From Bacteroidota bacterium (lineage in GTDB: Bacteria; Bacteroidota; Bacteroidia; UKL13-3), in contig CANGVA010000020.1 in the NCBI GenBank assembly GCA_947457395.1, positions 1 through 36,441 on the forward strand: a DNA stretch of 36,441 nt, in the 5' to 3' direction. Both the position numbers and the translations under genes were made by a program. Positions 4,038-36,441 of the stretch are shown one piece after another. The notes under the pieces were generated by a model. The model saw only the letters and a list, made by a program, of their open reading frames with translations, did no database searches and was not told the origin of the DNA. Positions within the stretch are counted from its first letter, which is position 1. Each line of letters begins with the position of its first letter.

Positions 4038-4065
4038 TGTTGGCAGTTCGAAGTTGGATGTTGGA
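4038..4065 (+). repeat. Degenerate TTGG heptad array (4 copies)
   Basis: Four successive 7-bp units read TGTTGGC, AGTTCGA, AGTTGGA and TGTTGGA. The period is exact and the core is R/T-GTTGG. The same type of heptad, in six copies, appears at 35170-35211 in another spacer. Confidence 0.65.
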
Positions 4066-4081
4066 GGTTACTTAAATTTAC

Positions 4082-4120
4082 CATTTATCATTTATCATTT
4101 ATCATTTATCATTTATCATT
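4082..4120 (+). repeat. (CATTTAT)n tandem array, about 5.6 copies
   Basis: This is a perfect tandem array of the heptamer CATTTAT, five full copies plus CATT. It lies 16 bp after the TTGG heptads. The perfect copies suggest recent expansion or active slippage. Confidence 0.9.
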
Positions 4121-4373
4121 CAGCCTTTAGCTTTTGGCCGTTGGAAATTAGAAATTAAAAGATTAAATCATAATTATATGTAATGAATTGATGTGATAAT
4201 GTAATAATTTGTCAATATAATGATGAGTGGATGTTGGTTAGAACTTATTACTCTTATTTCATTCCTGTTACTTTTGTCTTTCAGCGCAGCGGTCTTTCGT
4301 CTATACTGAGTATTCTACAAGCTCAGCCCCCGGCTTAACTCAACGCTTAAAACATTAAACTCAAAACTATCTT

Positions 4374-28794: not shown

Positions 28795-29934
28795 TTATTT
28801 TAAAATATTACGTGCAATCACCAGTTTTTGTATTTCGCTGGTGCCTTCACCAATCGTACACAACTTGGAGTCGCGGTAAAATTTCTCTACCGGAAAATCT
28901 TTGGTATAACCATAACCTCCAAAAATTTGAATAGCCTCTGTAGCTGCCCATACACATACTTCTGATGCATAGTATTTAGCCATAGCACTCTCTGTGGTCA
29001 TGGGTTTGTGTTTCATTTTTAAATCTGCCGCCTGGTATGTAAGCAATTCTGCTGCTTCAATACGTGTAGCCATATCGGCCAACTTAAATCCAATGGCCTG
29101 AAAATTTGAAATTGGCTGACCAAACTGATGGCGCTCTTTTGAATATTTTACTGCTGCTTCGTAACTGCCTTTGGCAATGCCCAATGACAAAGCCGCGATG
29201 GAAATACGACCACCATCTAATATTTTCATGGCTTGTTTAAAACCTTCGCCTACTTTACCTAAAATATTGGCAGCAGGTACGCGGCAATCTTCAAAAATAA
29301 GTTCAGCTGTTTCGCTGGCACGCATGCCTAATTTGTTCTCTTTTTTACCCCCTTTAAATCCGGGTGTGCCGCGCTCTACCACAAATGCAGTAATACCGTT
29401 AGAGTCTAACAACTCGCCTGTGCGTGCCAATACCACAGCCACATCTCCTGAAATGCCGTGGGTAATCCAGTTTTTGGTACCGTTTAATACCCAATGGTCG
29501 CCATCCTGTTTGGCCACGCATTGCATACGCATGGCATCACTTCCGGTATTGGCCTCGGTTAATCCCCAGGCACCAATCCACTCACCCGTGGCAAGCTTGG
29601 GTAACCATTTTTTCTTTTGCTCTTCGTTTCCAAACTGTAAAATATGACCCGTGCAAAGGGAATTATGTGCAGCCATTGATAAGCCAACTGAACTGCACAC
29701 CTTGGTAATTTCTTGTATGGCTACAATATATTCAAAGTAACCTAAACCGGCACCACCATATTCTTCGGGCACCAATACGCCCAACAGGCCCAGCTTACCC
29801 ATTTCCTGCATGGTTTGTTTAGGGAATGTTTGTGCTTCGTCCCACTCCATTACATGCGGACGTATAAATTTTTCGGCAAAATCTTTTGCCATCTGAGCAA
29901 CCATCTTCTGGTTCTCTGTCATCTCAAAGTTCAT
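28795..29934 (-). CDS. Acyl-CoA dehydrogenase
   Basis: This 379-aa FAD enzyme introduces the alpha-beta double bond in acyl-CoA. Family signatures are [11 protein letters not shown] (substrate and flavin binding, about 134-144) and a WITHG segment. C-terminal signatures are [20 protein letters not shown] and then EGTSEIQ, whose first Glu is the usual catalytic base of short-chain and branched-chain types. Length is normal. The ATG at 29934 (MNFEMTENQ) is preferred over 29949 or 29979, because family members begin close to that point. Specificity (short-chain, isovaleryl or glutaryl) cannot be settled by eye. It is monocistronic, with a terminator behind it. Confidence 0.92.
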
Positions 29935-30025
29935 TCCGTTAGTTTCCATGCAATAAGGGGTAGCTATTTTTTGGTGCAAGTATACAATCTTTTAAGCCAA
30001 TTACAGAAGTTAGGTTTGTGTTAAG

Positions 30026-30904
30026 TTATGGAATGTATAAATACAAAATAATGCGCTGGTAAACAGAATCATTAACCAATACTATTTTTCTTAAATCGGC
30101 CAGTTGGCGATAAGGTCCGTGCTGCATGCGATAGTTTACAATGGCCTGAGAAAGTTTGTATTTAAAGTATGGATGCTGCTTCAGCTCGTCTTGTGTTACG
30201 TTGTTTACATTAAATAGTTTTGCCTTTCCTGCATCTACTGTTATTCTATCCTGCAGGTCGTATAAAACATCGGGATCAAAACCCCATAATTCGGTGAGTT
30301 GTTCAGTCTTCACAAAGCCCCCCAGTTTGTTGCGGTAATCAACAATACGTTTGGCTGTTTTTGGACCAATGCCGCGCAAAGCCACCAGTGTTGCACTGTC
30401 TGCAGTATTAAGTTCAACTACGGCCGGTGGTGCAAATTTCTTTTTAGCCGATGCCGTATCCTGCATCCATTCCGGATTATCATCTATAACCACAAAAGGC
30501 AGCAAGGCCTGCTTGTGTTCCATGGTTAAACCATAAAGTTTTAGAATATCTTCCGGTTTGCGTAATCGTCCGCCTTTGCTTTGATACTTGCGCAAGCTCT
30601 TAATATTTCGCTCTGTGAAACCCAATTTGCGCAATTGCGCATTGGTAGCTGTATTTGGATTAAAAGTAAAAAATGTAGCTGCATTGTAAGCAGGCAATAC
30701 CTCATTGACTTCAATTGCTGCCAGCGCATCAGCAGGAATTTCTTTAATGGAAAACGTAGGTTCCGGTTCAGGAAAAATACGGTTAATAAAAAAGGGTGCA
30801 AATAATACCAGCAGCAAAATTGCCAGCAGCAATATCATACCCTTACGCTCCCCGCGCGAGAAAGTAAAGTATTGCTTAACTACCGTTTTGGCCTGGTTTA
30901 TCAT
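30026..30904 (-). CDS. Membrane-anchored triple helix-hairpin-helix protein (ComEA-like)
   Basis: This 292-aa protein has a short basic N-terminus, one membrane helix (about 23-41) and three helix-hairpin-helix modules at about 81-125, 165-209 and 231-276. The middle module is the best match (ELNTADSATLVALRGIGPKTAKRI). Single modules of this type form the periplasmic DNA-binding ComEA of the natural-transformation machinery. This protein is much longer than classical ComEA, and the first and last modules lack the GxG hairpin. DNA binding is therefore probable for the middle module only. It overlaps the upstream 45-aa membrane ORF by 29 nt in another frame. No other competence genes are in the window. 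Confidence 0.82.
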   Translation of the reverse strand: MINQAKTVVKQYFTFSRGERKGMILLLAILLLVLFAPFFINRIFPEPEPTFSIKEIPADALAAIEVNEVLPAYNAATFFTFNPNTATNAQLRKLGFTERNIKSLRKYQSKGGRLRKPEDILKLYGLTMEHKQALLPFVVIDDNPEWMQDTASAKKKFAPPAVVELNTADSATLVALRGIGPKTAKRIVDYRNKLGGFVKTEQLTELWGFDPDVLYDLQDRITVDAGKAKLFNVNNVTQDELKQHPYFKYKLSQAIVNYRMQHGPYRQLADLRKIVLVNDSVYQRIILYLYIP

Positions 30905-31013
30905 CTTTATCTTTTGGCTGCGTTTGTTTAAAAAAATAATAAAGCATCAACGCCACAAAAATGGCAAAGAATACTTCTGTGCCAAACCATACCCAAAAAT
31001 TAGAAGGATCCAT
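30876..31013 (-). CDS. 45-aa single-pass membrane peptide (hypothetical)
   Basis: This short reading frame begins at an ATG at 31013 and ends with TAA at 30878-30876. The peptide has an N-terminal MDPSNFWVWFGTEVFF, one hydrophobic helix (about 6-28) and a hydrophilic Lys/Asp-rich tail (KQTQPKDKDDKPGQNGS, 29-45). The composition and layout (helix then charged tail) are those of a real small membrane protein. I do not recognise the family. Its last 29 nt overlap the start of the ComEA-like gene, whose ATG falls inside its GATGATAAA, so translational coupling is likely. Confidence 0.6.
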   Translation of the reverse strand: MDPSNFWVWFGTEVFFAIFVALMLYYFFKQTQPKDKDDKPGQNGS

Positions 31014-31051
31014 TTATATTATCAAGTTAAATTTTTCTGAATCAAATAAAA

Positions 31052-31960
31052 TTACACAGTTTTTGCTTTCAGCTGTTCATCCAGCAAAGCCAAACCTTCT
31101 TCAAATGAGTGTGGCTTATATCCCAGTTCGGAAATAGCTTTGGTTAAAATAAATCCTGTTATTGGCGGGCGCTTGGCAGGTTGTTTAATACCTTCACTGG
31201 TAGAGAGGTTGAGCAACGTTTTATCCAGTTTCCAGAAACTTGCCACCCGATACACCAAATCAAACACACTCATAAAATCTTTACCGCTTATATTAAAAAC
31301 ACCTTTGGCTTTTTTTGCTGCAGCCAAAGCGCAACCTTGTGCCAGGTCTTCTGCAAGTGTAGGTGTTCTAAACTGATCGCCCACTACATTGAGTGTTTTA
31401 CCTTGCTCTAAATTGTTTTTAGCCCATAATACAATATTGCTTCGGCTCATATCACTCACCACGCCATAAACCAAAACGGTGCGACAAATACTCCAGCTGC
31501 TGCACTGCTCCATCACCACCATTTCGGCAAGGTGCTTGGATTGCCCGTAGTAACTCAGCGGATTGGGTTTTTCTTCCTCTGTTACGGGACCATGCGTTCC
31601 GTCAAAAATAAAATCGGTTGATACGTGCACCAGGTGAGCATTGATTTCATTGCATACCGCACAAATGTGTTTCACGGCCTCTACATTCAACGCGTCACAG
31701 CCGGCATGGTCACTTTCACAGGCATCCACATTGGTCATGGCAGCCGTATTAATTACCACATCAGGCTTGTGTTTATGTAAAATGGTTTTTACTTCATTAT
31801 ACTGTGTAATATCTAACGCTTCGTATACATAACCTTGTTTAACAGGATAGCGGTCAACTCCTTTTGCTGTTGCAATCAGCTCAATACCGGCTTGTTTCAG
31901 ATAATAATCTGTTAGCTTCTGACCCAGCAAACCATTGCTGCCTGTTACAAGTACTTTCAT
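31052..31960 (-). CDS. RfbD-like dTDP-4-dehydrorhamnose reductase family protein
   Basis: This 302-aa extended SDR has TGSNGLLG (6-13), [12 protein letters not shown] (71-82), VSTDFIFDG (113-121) and the catalytic Y138-K142 (YYGQSK). RfbD reduces dTDP-4-keto-L-rhamnose to dTDP-L-rhamnose; relatives make other deoxysugars or belong to the MAT2B group. No rfbA, rfbB or rfbC gene is adjacent and it is far from the polysaccharide block, so the rhamnose assignment is only by family. It is divergent from miaB, with 129 bp between the two starts. Confidence 0.82.
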
Positions 31961-32061
31961 GGTGCGAACATACTATTATCCCTTTCCTTTATCAATAAGC
32001 AGCCCCTACAAAAGCATTGCGTAATCCGTTACTTTTTCTGCCACTCTGTCAGAATTTTTAT

Positions 32062-32069
32062 TATCTTTG
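32062..32069 (+). promoter_or_regulatory. Promoter -7 box of miaB
   Basis: TATCTTTG matches TAnnTTTG and is followed by CGCC, as at the act operon. It is 20 nt before the miaB ATG. No clear TTTG lies at the -33 distance. Confidence 0.55.
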
Positions 32070-32089
32070 CGCCTCAATTTGATGCAAGC

Positions 32090-33469
32090 ATGAGAGGGAT
32101 AACTGCTGATGTGGCCCCTGAAACCGCCACCAGAAACCTGTATATAGAAACATATGGATGTGCCATGAACCTGGCTGACAGTGAAGTGATGGCCAGCATT
32201 ATGCTGGACAAAGGTTATAAAACCACCAGTGATCCGCTGGAGGCTGATGTGGTTTTTTTAAATACCTGCGCCATCCGAGACAATGCAGAATCAAGGGTAT
32301 GGGGCAGATTAAGAGAACTGAAACACCAGAAAAAGAAAAACCCGGGAATGATTGTGGGTGTAATGGGCTGCATGGCCGAACGTTTAAAAGCCAAATTACT
32401 GGAGCAGGAACAACTGGTTGATATTGTGGTTGGGCCCGATGCCTACCGCGATATTCCTAAACTGATACAACAAGTAGAAGAAGGACAGAAAGCCGTAAAT
32501 GTGCTGCTAAGCCGCGAAGAAACCTATGCAGAAATTACGCCTGTGCGATTGGGTAGCAATGGCGTTAATGCTTTCGTAAGCATTATGCGTGGTTGCGATA
32601 ATATGTGTTCCTTCTGTGTGGTGCCTTTTACCCGCGGACGTGAGCGCAGCCGTGAACCGCAGAGCATTGTTAAAGAAGCTACCGACCTATACAACCAGGG
32701 CTATAAAGAAGTAACACTGCTTGGACAAAATGTAGATTCTTACAAATGGCAAAATGAAGCAGGAGAAACCTTGTGCAACTTTGCACAACTCCTGGAACAG
32801 GTAGCTCAGATTGCTCCCGACTTGCGTATTCGTTTCTCTTCTTCGCATCCAAAAGATATTACTGATGAGGTATTGTATACCATGAAAAAGTATAACAATA
32901 TCTGTAACTATATTCATTTCCCATTACAATCCGGCAACTCACGGATACTGAAACTGATGAACCGTACTTATGATGCAGACTGGTTTAAACAACGCATAGA
33001 AAAAATACGCGAGGTAATTCCGGATTGCGGCATATCTACAGATGCCATTGTAGGTTTTTGCAGCGAAACAGAAGATGAATTTAAGGATACACTGGACATG
33101 TTCCGCTACTCGCAGTTTGATTTTGCTTATATGTATGCCTACAGCGAGCGTCCGGGAACCATGGCCGCACGCAAATATGCCGATGATATTGCTGCTAAAG
33201 ATAAAAGCCGAAGGCTGCAGGAACTCATCGATTTGCAAAACAGCATTAGCATAGAGAAAAACAAACGCTACATAGGTACCGAGCAAATTGTGCTGGTAGA
33301 GGGCGAATCAAAAAAATCTGAAGCCGATTTAAAAGGACGCAACGACCAAAACGTTACCGTTATTTTTCCAAAACAAAACGGTATTGGCAAAGGCTCATAT
33401 GTAAAAGTAAAAATAGAACGCAGCACCCAAACCAGCCTTATTGGTCAGGTAACAGAGGTGTTATCATAA
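32090..33469 (+). CDS. miaB: tRNA-2-methylthio-N6-dimethylallyladenosine synthase
   Basis: This 459-aa radical-SAM methylthiotransferase modifies i6A37 of tRNAs reading codons that start with U. The N-terminal UPF0004 domain holds the auxiliary cluster cysteines C24, C60 and C94 ([22 protein letters not shown]). The radical-SAM motif is C169-D-N-M-C173-S-F-C176. A C-terminal TRAM domain (about 395-459) binds tRNA. Length is typical. It has its own promoter box and is followed after 33 nt by the sigma-54 activator, which is probably co-transcribed. Confidence 0.95.
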
Positions 33470-33502
33470 TTTGTTTCTCCTCTCCTAAAAGTATTGAATG
33501 GT

Positions 33503-34732
33503 ATGAACATACAAGATATTAAACAACGTTTTGAAATTATTGGCAACTCTCCCCTGCTGAATATTGCACTTGAAACGGCAGTTAAAGTAGCACCTACGGA
33601 CATCAGCGTACTGATAAACGGTGAAAGTGGTGTGGGTAAAGAAGCGTTTTCAAAAATTATACATGCACTGAGCAACCGCAAACACGGACCTTTTATTGCT
33701 GTTAACTGCGGTGCCATTCCTGAAGGCACCATCGACTCTGAATTGTTCGGTCATGAAAAAGGATCTTTTACCGGAGCACACGATACACGCAAAGGTTATT
33801 TCGAAACCGTTAGCGGTGGTACTATATTTTTAGATGAAGTTGGAGAGCTGCCGCTGGAAACACAAGCGCGCCTGCTGCGTGTGCTGGAAAGTGGTGAGTT
33901 TATTAAAGTGGGTTCATCAAAAGTGCAGAAAACAGATGTGCGTGTGGTGGCAGCTACCAATAAAGATTTACTGGATTTGGCTGCTGCCGGAAAATTTCGT
34001 GAAGATCTTTACTACCGCTTAAGCACCGTGCCTATTAAAGTGCCACCCCTGCGCGAGCGTAAAGAAGACATACACTTATTGTTTAGAAAATTTGCAGCCG
34101 ACTTTGCAGAGAAATACAAATCAAAACCATTGGTTATTGAACCGGATGCACTGCAACTTCTGGTAAACTACCGCTGGCCGGGTAATATCCGTCAGCTTAA
34201 AAATATTGCTGAGCAACTTTCGGTACTTGATGAAGATAAAACCATCAATCCACAGGAACTCACACGTGTGCTGCCTCCAGAAAAACCAGGCCTGCCCATG
34301 TTGCTGGGCAATACCCCTGCCGATCAAGGCATGAGTGAACGTGATATTTTTTATAAAGTGCTGTTTGATTTACGAAAAGATGTAATGGATTTAAAAGGTA
34401 TTGTGTTTGATATGATGCAGGGTGGCAATGCTCCTGCCGGTATAAATCCCGCTTCACGCGAGCAGATAAGTCATTTGCTAAACGAACCATTTCATCAACC
34501 TGCCACACATCCGCAGGTAATGCCTGTTTCTCCTGTATCCAATGCACCACAGGTTATTGAAATACCCGTGGCACAGCCAGCTAATGAAAGCCTCTCTCTG
34601 GAAGAACTGGAACTGGAAATGATTAAAAAAGCACTTGATAAATACAACGGCAGGCGCAAAAAAGCAGCCAATGAATTAGGAATTTCAGAGCGTACACTTT
34701 ACCGTAAAATCAAACAATACAACTTAGAATAA
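33503..34732 (+). CDS. Sigma-54-interaction AAA+ transcriptional activator without receiver domain
   Basis: This 409-aa regulator has the AAA+ core at its very N-terminus (residues about 10-235), with no receiver, GAF or PAS domain. Walker A is GESGVGKE (40-47). The sigma-54 contact loop reads GSFTGA (87-92) in place of GAFTGA. Walker B is TIFLDEVGEL (107-116) and REDLYYRLS with PPLRERKEDI follows. A Pro/Ala-rich, variable linker spans about 265-360. A Fis-type helix-turn-helix closes the protein (KKAANELGISERTLYRKIKQ). The ATG at 33503 is preferred; a TTG at 33494 would add three residues. Control probably rests on abundance or a partner protein. Target promoters are not evident here. Confidence 0.9.
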   Translation: MNIQDIKQRFEIIGNSPLLNIALETAVKVAPTDISVLINGESGVGKEAFSKIIHALSNRKHGPFIAVNCGAIPEGTIDSELFGHEKGSFTGAHDTRKGYFETVSGGTIFLDEVGELPLETQARLLRVLESGEFIKVGSSKVQKTDVRVVAATNKDLLDLAAAGKFREDLYYRLSTVPIKVPPLRERKEDIHLLFRKFAADFAEKYKSKPLVIEPDALQLLVNYRWPGNIRQLKNIAEQLSVLDEDKTINPQELTRVLPPEKPGLPMLLGNTPADQGMSERDIFYKVLFDLRKDVMDLKGIVFDMMQGGNAPAGINPASREQISHLLNEPFHQPATHPQVMPVSPVSNAPQVIEIPVAQPANESLSLEELELEMIKKALDKYNGRRKKAANELGISERTLYRKIKQYNLE

Positions 34733-34736
34733 CAGT

Positions 34737-34767
34737 TTTGCTTTTTAACTAAATTGGAGTTTTTTTG
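34737..34767 (+). promoter_or_regulatory. Candidate promoter of the MORN-like gene
   Basis: TTTG (34737-34740) and TTTTTTTG (34760-34767, one mismatch to TAnnTTTG) are 19 bp apart. The ATG follows 24 nt later. Confidence 0.4.
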
Positions 34768-34791
34768 CACCAAAATTTTTAAAAAGCCTTC

Positions 34792-35157
34792 ATGAAAAAA
34801 CTTATTGCTATCCTCGCATTTTGCTTTATTGGTTTCAATCTATCAGCTCAGGTTATTGATGACAAAGCAGGTAAAACTTACTACTACTATGATGAGTCTA
34901 CCAAAAAGAAACTGAAAGAAGTGTATCACCACAAGGATATGATTAAAATTGTGCCCGATAAAAACAACTACGGCAGCTACCGCGATACCATTATTTACAT
35001 GAAGCATGGTCCGTATACGTTATATGATGAGCAAGGCAATCTGAAATGCTCAGGCTATTTTCATAAAGATAAAAAAGATAGCATCTGGAAATACTATGAC
35101 GTTAAAGGTGCACTCCTTAAAACAGAACGATGGAAAATCGGGAAACAGATTAATTAG
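34792..35157 (+). CDS. Exported MORN-repeat-like protein
   Basis: This 121-aa protein has a signal peptide (about 1-19, ending before QVIDD). Two degenerate MORN-like strands follow, best seen as HGPYTLYDEQGNLKCSGYF (about 83-101) and IWKYYDVKGALLKTERW (about 108-124 region of the C-terminus). Such G-x-W/Y-x-x-Y-D-x-x-G-x-L repeats also occur in YwqK-like proteins, which are common and poorly characterised in Bacteroidota. It probably folds as a short beta sheet in the periplasm or at the outer membrane. No function can be assigned. The repeat-filled spacer begins directly after its stop. Confidence 0.72.
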   Translation: MKKLIAILAFCFIGFNLSAQVIDDKAGKTYYYYDESTKKKLKEVYHHKDMIKIVPDKNNYGSYRDTIIYMKHGPYTLYDEQGNLKCSGYFHKDKKDSIWKYYDVKGALLKTERWKIGKQIN

Positions 35158-35169
35158 TTGACCTCTGGG

Positions 35170-35211
35170 GATTGGCCATTGGGTGTTGGGTGTTGGCTAC
35201 TGGCTATTGGC
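35170..35211 (+). repeat. Degenerate TTGG heptad array (6 copies)
   Basis: Six successive 7-bp units read GATTGGC, CATTGGG, TGTTGGG, TGTTGGC, TACTGGC and TATTGGC. The consensus is N-R-Y-T-G-G-S. The same unit type occurs at 4038-4065. It lies 9 bp upstream of the pyrimidine-rich array. Confidence 0.8.
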
Positions 35212-35220
35212 TAAATGCGT

Positions 35221-35365
35221 TCCAATCTTTCAATCTTCTAATCTTTCAATCTCCTAATCTTCCAATCTCCTAATCTTTCAATCTTCTAATCTTTCAATCT
35301 TCTAATCTTTCAATCTTCTAATCTTTCAATCTCCTAATCTTTCAATCTTCTAATTTTCTAATTTT
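35221..35365 (+). repeat. Tandem array of an 8-bp unit (TYYAATCT), higher order 16 bp
   Basis: About 18 copies of T-Y-Y-AATCT are arranged as eight 16-bp dimers of the type TTCAATCT-TCTAATCT, plus flanking half units. Variation is confined almost entirely to C/T changes at positions 2 and 3, with C-to-T drift of AATCT to AATTT in the last copies. The plus strand is almost free of G across the array. Confidence 0.92.
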
Positions 35366-35380
35366 CCTTACCTTCCCTGC

Positions 35381-36441
35381 ATGACTAATGAGGAAATTGC
35401 CGAACTATTTAAATGGTATGCCAATCTGAGCGAACTGCATGATGGAAATCCGTTTAAAATTAAATCTTACGCAGCGGCTGCTTTTAAAATAGATAAACTC
35501 TCCACGCCCCTGGAGGGCAAATCTGTGGCTGAGCTGGAAGCCATGGAAGGCATTGGCAAAAGTATTGCCCAAAAGATTTTTGAAATAAACCAATCTGGTT
35601 CGTTTACCGAGTTGGTTGAACTTATTAACGATACCCCGCAAGGTGTTATTGATTTGTTTAAGGTAAAAGGAATAGGCCCTAAAAAAATTGCCTATATCTG
35701 GAAACAACTGGGTATTGAAAGCATGGGCGAACTGCTTTATGCCTGCAATGAAAACCGCCTGGCCCAGGCCAAAGGTTTCGGGCTAAAAACACAGCAGGCC
35801 GTTAAAGAAAGTATTGAATTTATTTTTAGCAATGCCAACAAGTTTCATTATGCCAAACTGGAAAAGCCTGCCCTGCAACTGCTAAATGAACTGCAACAGC
35901 AACCTTTTGTAAGCCGCATATCTTTTACCGGTGAGCTGCGCAGAAAAAACGAAACACTGGATCATATCTCATTGCTTATTGCAGCCAACCAAACACAACT
36001 GCTGGCCTACCTGCAAAACAGCATGGAAGTTACTGTGCATGAAAACCACCTGTCGTTTCGCTACAACGAGGGTTACCCTGTATCTGTTATCCTAACCGAT
36101 GAGGCACATTTTGATGAAACACTTTTTATCTCTACTGCTGCACCTGCCCATCTAAAACAACTGGAACAGGCCGGTGCAAATATAAAAGCCGGTAATGAGC
36201 AGGCCATTTATGCTTCTGCCGGTTTAGCTTTTATTGAGCCTGAAATGCGCGAAGGCCTGGGCGAAGTGGAAAAAGCACGAACAAACAGCCTGCCCCTGCT
36301 TATTGAGCACAGCCACCTTAAAGGCATTTTGCATAACCATACCAACTACTCCGATGGTGCCAATACCTTAACCGAGATGGCCGTTTTTTGCAAAGAAGCA
36401 GGATTTGAATACCTGGGCATTTGCGACCACTCCAAAAGTGC
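35381..36441 (+). CDS. PolX-like protein with helix-hairpin-helix and PHP domains (3' partial)
   Basis: This gene runs off the window; 353 codons are visible from the ATG at 35381. The N-terminal 8-kDa-like domain (1-50) and two helix-hairpin-helix motifs are clear: GIGKSIAQKI (about 59-68) and VKGIGPKKIAYIW (about 94-106). The nucleotidyltransferase region follows, with LRRKNET at 186-192. The expected DxD is occupied by H195 and S197, and the later strand that normally carries the third Asp has S235 instead. An IYASAGLAFIEPEMREG segment matches the linker of PolX proteins. The PHP domain then begins with HNHTNYSDG, whose metal-binding residues are intact. PolX proteins act in DNA repair as gap-filling polymerases with a PHP exonuclease; this one probably keeps DNA binding and the nuclease but not polymerisation. 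It starts 15 bp after the repeat array. Confidence 0.85.
   Translation, partial: MTNEEIAELFKWYANLSELHDGNPFKIKSYAAAAFKIDKLSTPLEGKSVAELEAMEGIGKSIAQKIFEINQSGSFTELVELINDTPQGVIDLFKVKGIGPKKIAYIWKQLGIESMGELLYACNENRLAQAKGFGLKTQQAVKESIEFIFSNANKFHYAKLEKPALQLLNELQQQPFVSRISFTGELRRKNETLDHISLLIAANQTQLLAYLQNSMEVTVHENHLSFRYNEGYPVSVILTDEAHFDETLFISTAAPAHLKQLEQAGANIKAGNEQAIYASAGLAFIEPEMREGLGEVEKARTNSLPLLIEHSHLKGILHNHTNYSDGANTLTEMAVFCKEAGFEYLGICDHSKS

Follow-up and report, generated by a model that had tools for sequence, protein, structure and literature searches.

Two adjoining arrays of 7-bp and 8-bp words in the spacer before a PolX-like gene of a Bacteroidota bacterium

In a 36,441-nucleotide stretch of DNA from a Bacteroidota bacterium (contig CANGVA010000020.1, the whole of which is called the window here), the spacer before a PolX-like gene carries two arrays of short words, G-containing heptads followed by G-free octamers, and this raises the question of how such a composite arises and whether it does anything for the genes on either side. 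The features of the locus are as follows.

34,792 to 35,157, plus strand: upstream ORF of 121 amino acids, called "MORN-like" in a preliminary description; no Pfam match; DNA 366/366 identical in a second genome of the same genus (G001)
35,170 to 35,211, plus strand: six heptads NRYTGGS with a TTGG core, G-rich on the sense strand, the first beginning 12 bp after the upstream stop codon
35,212 to 35,220, plus strand: 9-bp junction between the two arrays, TAAATGCGT
35,221 to 35,364, plus strand: 18 octamers [TC][CT][CT]AAT[CT]T, G-free, with C/T variation only, in part ordered as 16-bp dimers
35,365 to 35,380, plus strand: remainder of the leader before the ATG, TCCTTACCTTCCCTGC, also kept in G001
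35,381 to 36,439, plus strand: PolX-like protein, open at the contig end, with HHH domains above the cut-off and PHP just below it

The six heptads (GATTGGC, CATTGGG, TGTTGGG, TGTTGGC, TACTGGC and TATTGGC) begin about 8-12 bp past the stop codon of the upstream ORF, lie in a lag-7 segment at 35,166-35,213, and all fit the NRYTGGS pattern that the preliminary description had read in them. That description had also counted about 18 copies of TYYAATCT beginning 9 bp after the heptads, and the number and the distance were borne out, but the strict word holds in only 13 of the 18 units; the other five deviate by C/T alone (three times as CCTAATCT and twice as TCTAATTT), in agreement with its remark that the variation was almost entirely C/T. 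The array, which had been called nearly free of G, contains none at all (A36 C39 G0 T70 in the 145 bases of 35,221-35,365). TRF gives it a period of 16 bp repeated 8.8 times (score 236), and the proposed order of 16-bp dimers stands to this extent, although the TTC/TCT alternation that makes the dimer is limited to octamer units 8-14. The self-similarity scores of the spacer were 59.8 at lag 8 and 21.2 at lag 7; when the spacer was redrawn 200 times per lag with a first-order model, no score exceeded 12.2. A directional C-to-T change, also put forward, does not follow, as direction is not readable from C/T variation (the first column has C in 3 units and T in 15). Rfam at gathering scores gave no match in the window.

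The MORN-like label of the upstream gene found no support in Pfam (no match at E ≤ 0.01), and the PolX-like label of the downstream gene is supported, with HHH_8, HHH_5 and HHH above the Pfam cut-off, PHP at 26.0 bits against a cut-off of 26.4, and DNA_pol_B_thumb also below its cut-off. The octamer array does lie before the PolX-like ATG (35,381) as had been reported, but with a measured gap of 16 bp rather than 15 bp.

The same spacer in G001 holds about 20 heptads and 5 octamers, compared to 6-7 heptads and 18 octamers in the genome of the window (G000), which corresponds to 137 and 42 bp of heptads and octamers versus 48 and 147 bp, while the upstream gene is identical at 366 of 366 positions and the first 600 bp of PolX at 596. 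Both genomes have the same first three octamers and the same tail in front of the ATG, and therefore the change sits within the arrays. Two further loci could be aligned on both flanks: at C12 the octamers span 83 versus 59 bp in the G000/G001 comparison, and at 44.5 kb on C3 they span 156 versus 148 bp, with an extra heptad-bearing block in G001. The copy numbers of both arrays thus differ between flanking genes that have hardly changed, as is the mark of a VNTR locus (here between G000 and one relative, both as draft assemblies), and this fits the copying by slippage which had been suggested, or unequal exchange. The copy numbers are draft-assembly values, and exact ones require reads, because both assemblies are drafts and contig C2 of G001 ends inside an array.

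Over positions 29,001-36,000 the window is mostly 94-99% identical to G001, and most of 9-28 kb is 75-93% identical. From this pattern of identity the flanks of the spacer may share a recent exchange, the high-identity block at 29-36 kb pointing to recent recombination or to source samples that contained closely related strains.

The words are not confined to this locus. A search of the 2.54-Mb G000 with the octamer pair in tandem gave 23 matches versus 6 for the reversed pattern, at five places including the window, and TTGGNNN in three tandem copies gave 27 versus 1, at six places, one of which (on C22, without an array) looks like chance. Four copies of TTNRNWR matched 42 times versus 2 reversed in G000 and 6 versus 0 in G001. 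Counting the window's own, octamers stand at five or more places of G000 and heptads at seven or more intergenic ones, which upholds the dispersed repeat family that had been anticipated, and the words belong to a vocabulary dispersed in the genome and common to the same-genus genome. The outcome that had been named as speaking against the preliminary reading, an array unique in the genome and invariant between strains, was not found, because the array is neither: there are other arrays in the genome and the copy numbers in G001 differ. Of 58 genomes, that of the window included, 4 contain three tandem octamers and 19 contain four TTGG heptads; in several, such as G035, G039 and G026, the reversed heptad pattern outnumbers the forward one, and TTGG is therefore not their dominant word. 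The G000 stretches C6, C9, C12, C15 and C18 were chosen for having arrays, and because this sample is non-random a genome-wide array density is not given.

Several other repeats were observed in passing. A second composite in the window, at 4039-4330, has heptads, 6.4 copies of ATTTATC, TTTAGCTTTTGGCC words and a mostly non-tandem tail; its part at about 4122-4302 is 89% identical over 123 bp to C15:46382-46504 of G000 (L153), with weaker relatives on other contigs of G000 and G001, and judged by this alignment it is a dispersed block, going beyond shared words alone. The 14-bp word AACCCGCAATNNNN is repeated and dispersed in G000 and G001 (for example at C3:35766-36052 (L139) and C12:85770); with up to 3 mismatches it gave 21+8 and 6+13 matches in G000 and G001 respectively, compared to 3 and 10 for the reversed control, some of the matches falling in ordinary sequence. 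At C3:44605-44661 (L140) and C3:200289-200433 (L148) of G000, octamer arrays cross the stop codon of the neighbouring gene in our own gene calls, and the array therefore provides the last codons and the stop.

We propose, with a probability of roughly 0.6, that the spacer is a slippage-born composite of two arrays with fast turnover, in which selection on the transcript sets the strand placement, and whose dedicated regulatory role is small or absent. Steps of 7, 8 and 16 bp would be gained and lost when the polymerase slips or recombination is unequal, making and editing the arrays, and selection on the transcript would decide which strand faces where. In the 3' untranslated end of the gene on the left, G-containing words would be tolerated or even useful; in front of a start codon, the leader would have to remain G-poor and open for ribosome loading, with G-rich words being removed from it. 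In the window, the upstream gene would then have the heptads as its 3' tail, and PolX the octamers as a G-free leader of variable length.

The placement of strands was followed in 13 genomes with at least 60 kb sampled (8 of the 21 genomes, with less than 60 kb, were left out), using the 107 of 118 segments that were non-coding (11 mostly coding ones were set aside) and a threshold of |G skew| ≥ 0.2; genes were called with our own hexamer script, and arrays were penalised in its second version because the first called some of them coding. Within 30 bp of a stop codon 26 arrays were G-rich and 6 C-rich on the sense strand (array-free baseline 123:181), and within 30 bp before a start codon none was G-rich and 14 were C-rich (array-free baseline 149:339). 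The window spacer fits this tendency, its heptads being G-rich on the sense strand after the stop and its octamers G-free 16 bp before the start. Because the nearest-boundary criterion had been chosen after the first sample was viewed, later tests were added. In the later-sampled stretches (L257-L296, mostly from the same genomes as the first sample) the ratios of G-rich to C-rich arrays within 120 bp were 15:8 at stops and 2:7 at starts (Fisher p = 0.049), and at other loci outside the first sample they were 7:3 and 1:5; this last set was drawn from 29 segments, of which 11 were dropped because they might be coding and 2 more because they were too distant or too weakly skewed. It excludes L110 and L111, already part of the first sample, and L114-L124, which repeat places counted once; L070, L071 and L074 had already been viewed earlier. 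The two sets pooled gave p = 0.0045. A simpler description by orientation between tandem genes, ignoring the nearest boundary, was rejected, as the pattern is absent from it (8 G-rich on the sense strand and 9 on the antisense, with the first gene caller).

Over all data, lag-8 arrays alone gave 9:1 at stops and 0:7 at starts, and arrays lacking a G or C run of 3 gave 21:7 and 0:13. When each spacer was given a vote on the top strand, 49 of 62 voted clearly, 37 for G-rich to C-rich and 12 for the opposite, and nine of ten genomes leaned towards G-rich to C-rich with one tied (half of the ten are represented by no more than three spacers). G-left/C-right order was seen in tandem spacers at 33:11 compared to a baseline of 182:141 (p = 0.022) and in convergent spacers at 11:4 compared to 28:35 (p = 0.083, not significant), with no excess in divergent spacers (11:5 compared to 146:59). 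In G035, the array-richest genome, 8 arrays were G-rich and 8 C-rich within 120 bp of stops (9:6 by spacer), and G041 stood at 3:3 by spacer. As array-free leaders already lean C-rich, the start half is only moderately beyond its baseline (p = 0.014). That arrays are G-rich near stops and G-poor or C-rich near starts is a statistical tendency, then, and a weak one in G035.

In a different account of the same polarity, the two arrays would pair into a long imperfect hairpin of RNA, with a G-rich 5' arm and a pyrimidine-rich 3' arm, which would end upstream transcription or stabilise the 3' end. Of the 62 spacers with arrays, 40 (80-450 bp) were folded together with 150 sampled array-free spacers, each on the top strand irrespective of gene strand and with 30 shuffles. 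This gave tandem spacers a mean z of -2.3 with arrays (28 spacers) versus about -1.05 without (95), the difference over all spacer types pooled having p = 0.008, but array-bearing convergent and divergent spacers folded no better than array-free ones. The minimum free energy fold of the window spacer (-27.1 kcal/mol) pairs the heptads with the first octamers, as this model would have it, but its z is only -0.7 and -1.4, about 11 of the 18 octamers are unpaired and no T-run beyond the stem is longer than 4; the G001 spacer folds to -63.3, with z of -1.8/-3.3, and -3.3 under half-wise shuffling. An array with an inverted match scoring at least 11 in its own spacer (a cut-off set after the list was seen) was found in 18 of the 62 spacers, 9 of them in G035, an example being TAAGGAGTAAGGAG...CTCCTTACTCCTTA. 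Sixteen of these matches beat all cross comparisons in their genome, some narrowly, and of the remaining two one lost to 1 of its 17 comparisons and for the other there was nothing to compare. Across the loci as a whole, own matches showed no excess over cross matches (Wilcoxon p = 0.12). At the window spacer itself, inverted arms of the same word were considered and rejected, since 8 of 11 cross scores were at least as high as its own score of 6.5, the octamers thus matching their own spacer no better than others, and an inverted partner of its longest array was sought and none was found. Taking these together, we consider a hairpin role for this spacer unlikely.

The position of the octamers, ending 16 bp before the ATG, and the strong copy-number difference between two close relatives would also be expected of a contingency locus, in which the number of octamers in the leader tunes or switches PolX expression, as the preliminary description had supposed possible. 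Among 39 regions upstream of PolX (some records being included twice, and 9 being minus-strand loci), an array was present in only three, L041, L053 and L057, and such arrays adjoin many other genes, so PolX is not singled out; these counts make an expression switch improbable. The arrays at L053 and L057 belong to two other genera and lie directly before the PolX-like ATG, the one in G033 (L053) being G-free (lag 7, score 31.2) and the one in G010 (L057) weak and G-poor (lag 8, score 12.2). As their words differ, this suggests independent origin at the same place, and arrays in that position count in favour of a contingency locus.

The variation within the units is relevant to a third alternative. 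Pooled over G000 and G001, 118 heptads fall into 40 types, and among the 62 pairs of types one step apart only 2 differ in the columns TT.G, and 86 octamers keep AA; this steadiness is partly built in, because the sets were found by, and registered on, those letters (the heptad pool was found in part by the TTGG pattern and registered by TT.G). A register-free check found variation limited to some columns in all six long arrays (chi-square p from 0.012 to ≤2e-5, values which are too small because the units are copies of each other), and the minority letters per column of the window octamers number 3, 7, 9, 0, 0, 0, 2 and 0. Column-confined variation counts against slippage-born arrays with fast turnover as the best reading, because neutral slippage does not predict it; it is the least explained part of the locus and needs either some constraint or the amplification of a few early variants. 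One such constraint could be a putative DNA- or RNA-binding protein with the core TTNG/CNAA as its site every 7-8 bp, for which the uneven columns of the long arrays and the TT.G of the pooled heptads (partly built in, as above) would speak, but the words vary between lineages. Another could be a quadruplex on the G-rich strand, and oligonucleotides of the GGGAATC type do form quadruplexes in vitro according to the available text of Rehm 2015 (PMC4692102). The stretch at 35,166-35,213 has three tracts of at least 3 G where four tracts of 3 are required, and the fold of the window heptads contains no quadruplex even when quadruplexes are allowed, while longer arrays in G001 and C18 do form one; the strand tendency persists, moreover, in arrays lacking G-runs. 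We think it quite improbable that either kind of site explains the spacer. Finally, the composite could be what is left of a mobile or conversion-spread element that carried its arrays along, but a DNA search with the whole spacer makes this highly improbable. Each of the 12 further G000 matches takes in either the heptads or the octamers, never both (the junction being aligned only in the orthologous G001 spacer), which is not the copying of a whole block between sites that characterises MITE- or REP-like elements. In favour of such an element, the octamer part does have an 89% relative over 137 bp at C3:200299, and the second composite of the window, with its relative at C15:46382, shows that some array-bearing blocks exist in more than one copy.

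A scan of lag self-similarity over 2.37 Mb of 21 genomes, mostly of the window's family or class, gave 7 and 8 bp as the commonest short repeat periods. There were 100 segments at lag 7, 31 at lag 8, 18 at lag 9 and 13 at lag 6, with 2, 0, 4, 0, 8 and 5 at lags 4, 5, 10, 11, 12 and 13 respectively; the multiples 14, 21, 16 and 24 gave 77, 63, 24 and 24, lags 15 and 18 gave 14 and 19, and a Markov control gave 0-3 per lag. The words are lineage-specific (ATTATCC, GAGAGCA and GGGTTTC in G035, CAATTTAA in G006 and G034, TAAGGAG in G005). In G006 and G034, which are of one genus, the window's layout recurs in different wording: heptads with a G skew lie at the stop and are followed by octamers that end 9-10 bp before the start or reach up to it. 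The use of 7/8-bp words, with a preferred strand near stops and near starts, is thus common to related genomes, a point that the preliminary description had missed. Rather speculatively, the Bacteroidia may share fast-evolving, strand-polar arrays of 7/8-bp words, lineage- or locus-specific in wording, with G-rich RNA trailing genes and G-free RNA leading them, in some genomes with the halves as inverted copies of one word (by arm-to-arm copying or paired selection), under a quadruplex-independent rule common to Xanthomonas and Nostoc and with one common cause; this wider proposal is tentative and we do not hold it to be the probable one.

Intergenic heptamer arrays are known from other bacteria. 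In the available text of Rehm 2015 (PMC4692102), GGGAATC and GGGGAYT heptamer repeats of Xanthomonas and Nostoc have their G-rich strand as the sense strand up to 50 bp from stops and as the antisense strand in the 50 bp upstream of ORFs; they overlap stop codons, form inverted pairs in Xanthomonas and differ in length between relatives; the authors were unable to identify a regulatory role and reported increased genomic stability around the repeats. The window spacer resembles these in its tandem heptamers, G-rich on the sense strand near the stop and antisense near the start. It differs, as far as that text goes, in having many degenerate words rather than one quadruplex-forming word type per lineage, an octamer class free of G-runs together with the heptad/octamer composite, heptads with three rather than four G-tracts, and copy numbers that differ strongly where stability is raised around the repeats of Rehm. 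If the pattern holds in complete genomes, this would suggest that the placement rule of quadruplex heptamers does not need quadruplexes, it would turn the questions of why heptamers, and why G-rich after genes, into testable ones, and the arrays could serve as fast strain-typing markers for uncultured Bacteroidota.

The TAACTGA direct repeats of Beggiatoaceae, Cyanobacteria and five Bacteroidetes, as given in the part of MacGregor 2015 (PMC4679880) available to us, are intergenic and near start codons, with one reversed set just after a stop; in Bacteroidetes spacers they are mixed with other heptamers, contigs end within the arrays, and they are missing from shorter spacers of some close relatives. 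The arrays described here likewise include intergenic heptamer arrays, and a G001 contig ends inside an array, but there are several words and octamers in place of a single fixed word with no 8-bp class described in that part, and TAACTGA in tandem is absent among the units and the sequence of the window spacer. The same source cites Mrazek 2007 for long simple sequence repeats with units of 1-11 nt, for which slippage was proposed; as cited, those are simple repeats of one unit, whereas the spacer arrays are of degenerate words with steadier and more variable columns. In the open-access literature no paper on a 7+8-bp composite was found among the matches listed, the words themselves not being queried. 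On the best reading, the arrays are therefore of a known kind, that of fast-changing spacer arrays, and what is new is their composite 7+8-bp, multi-word form.
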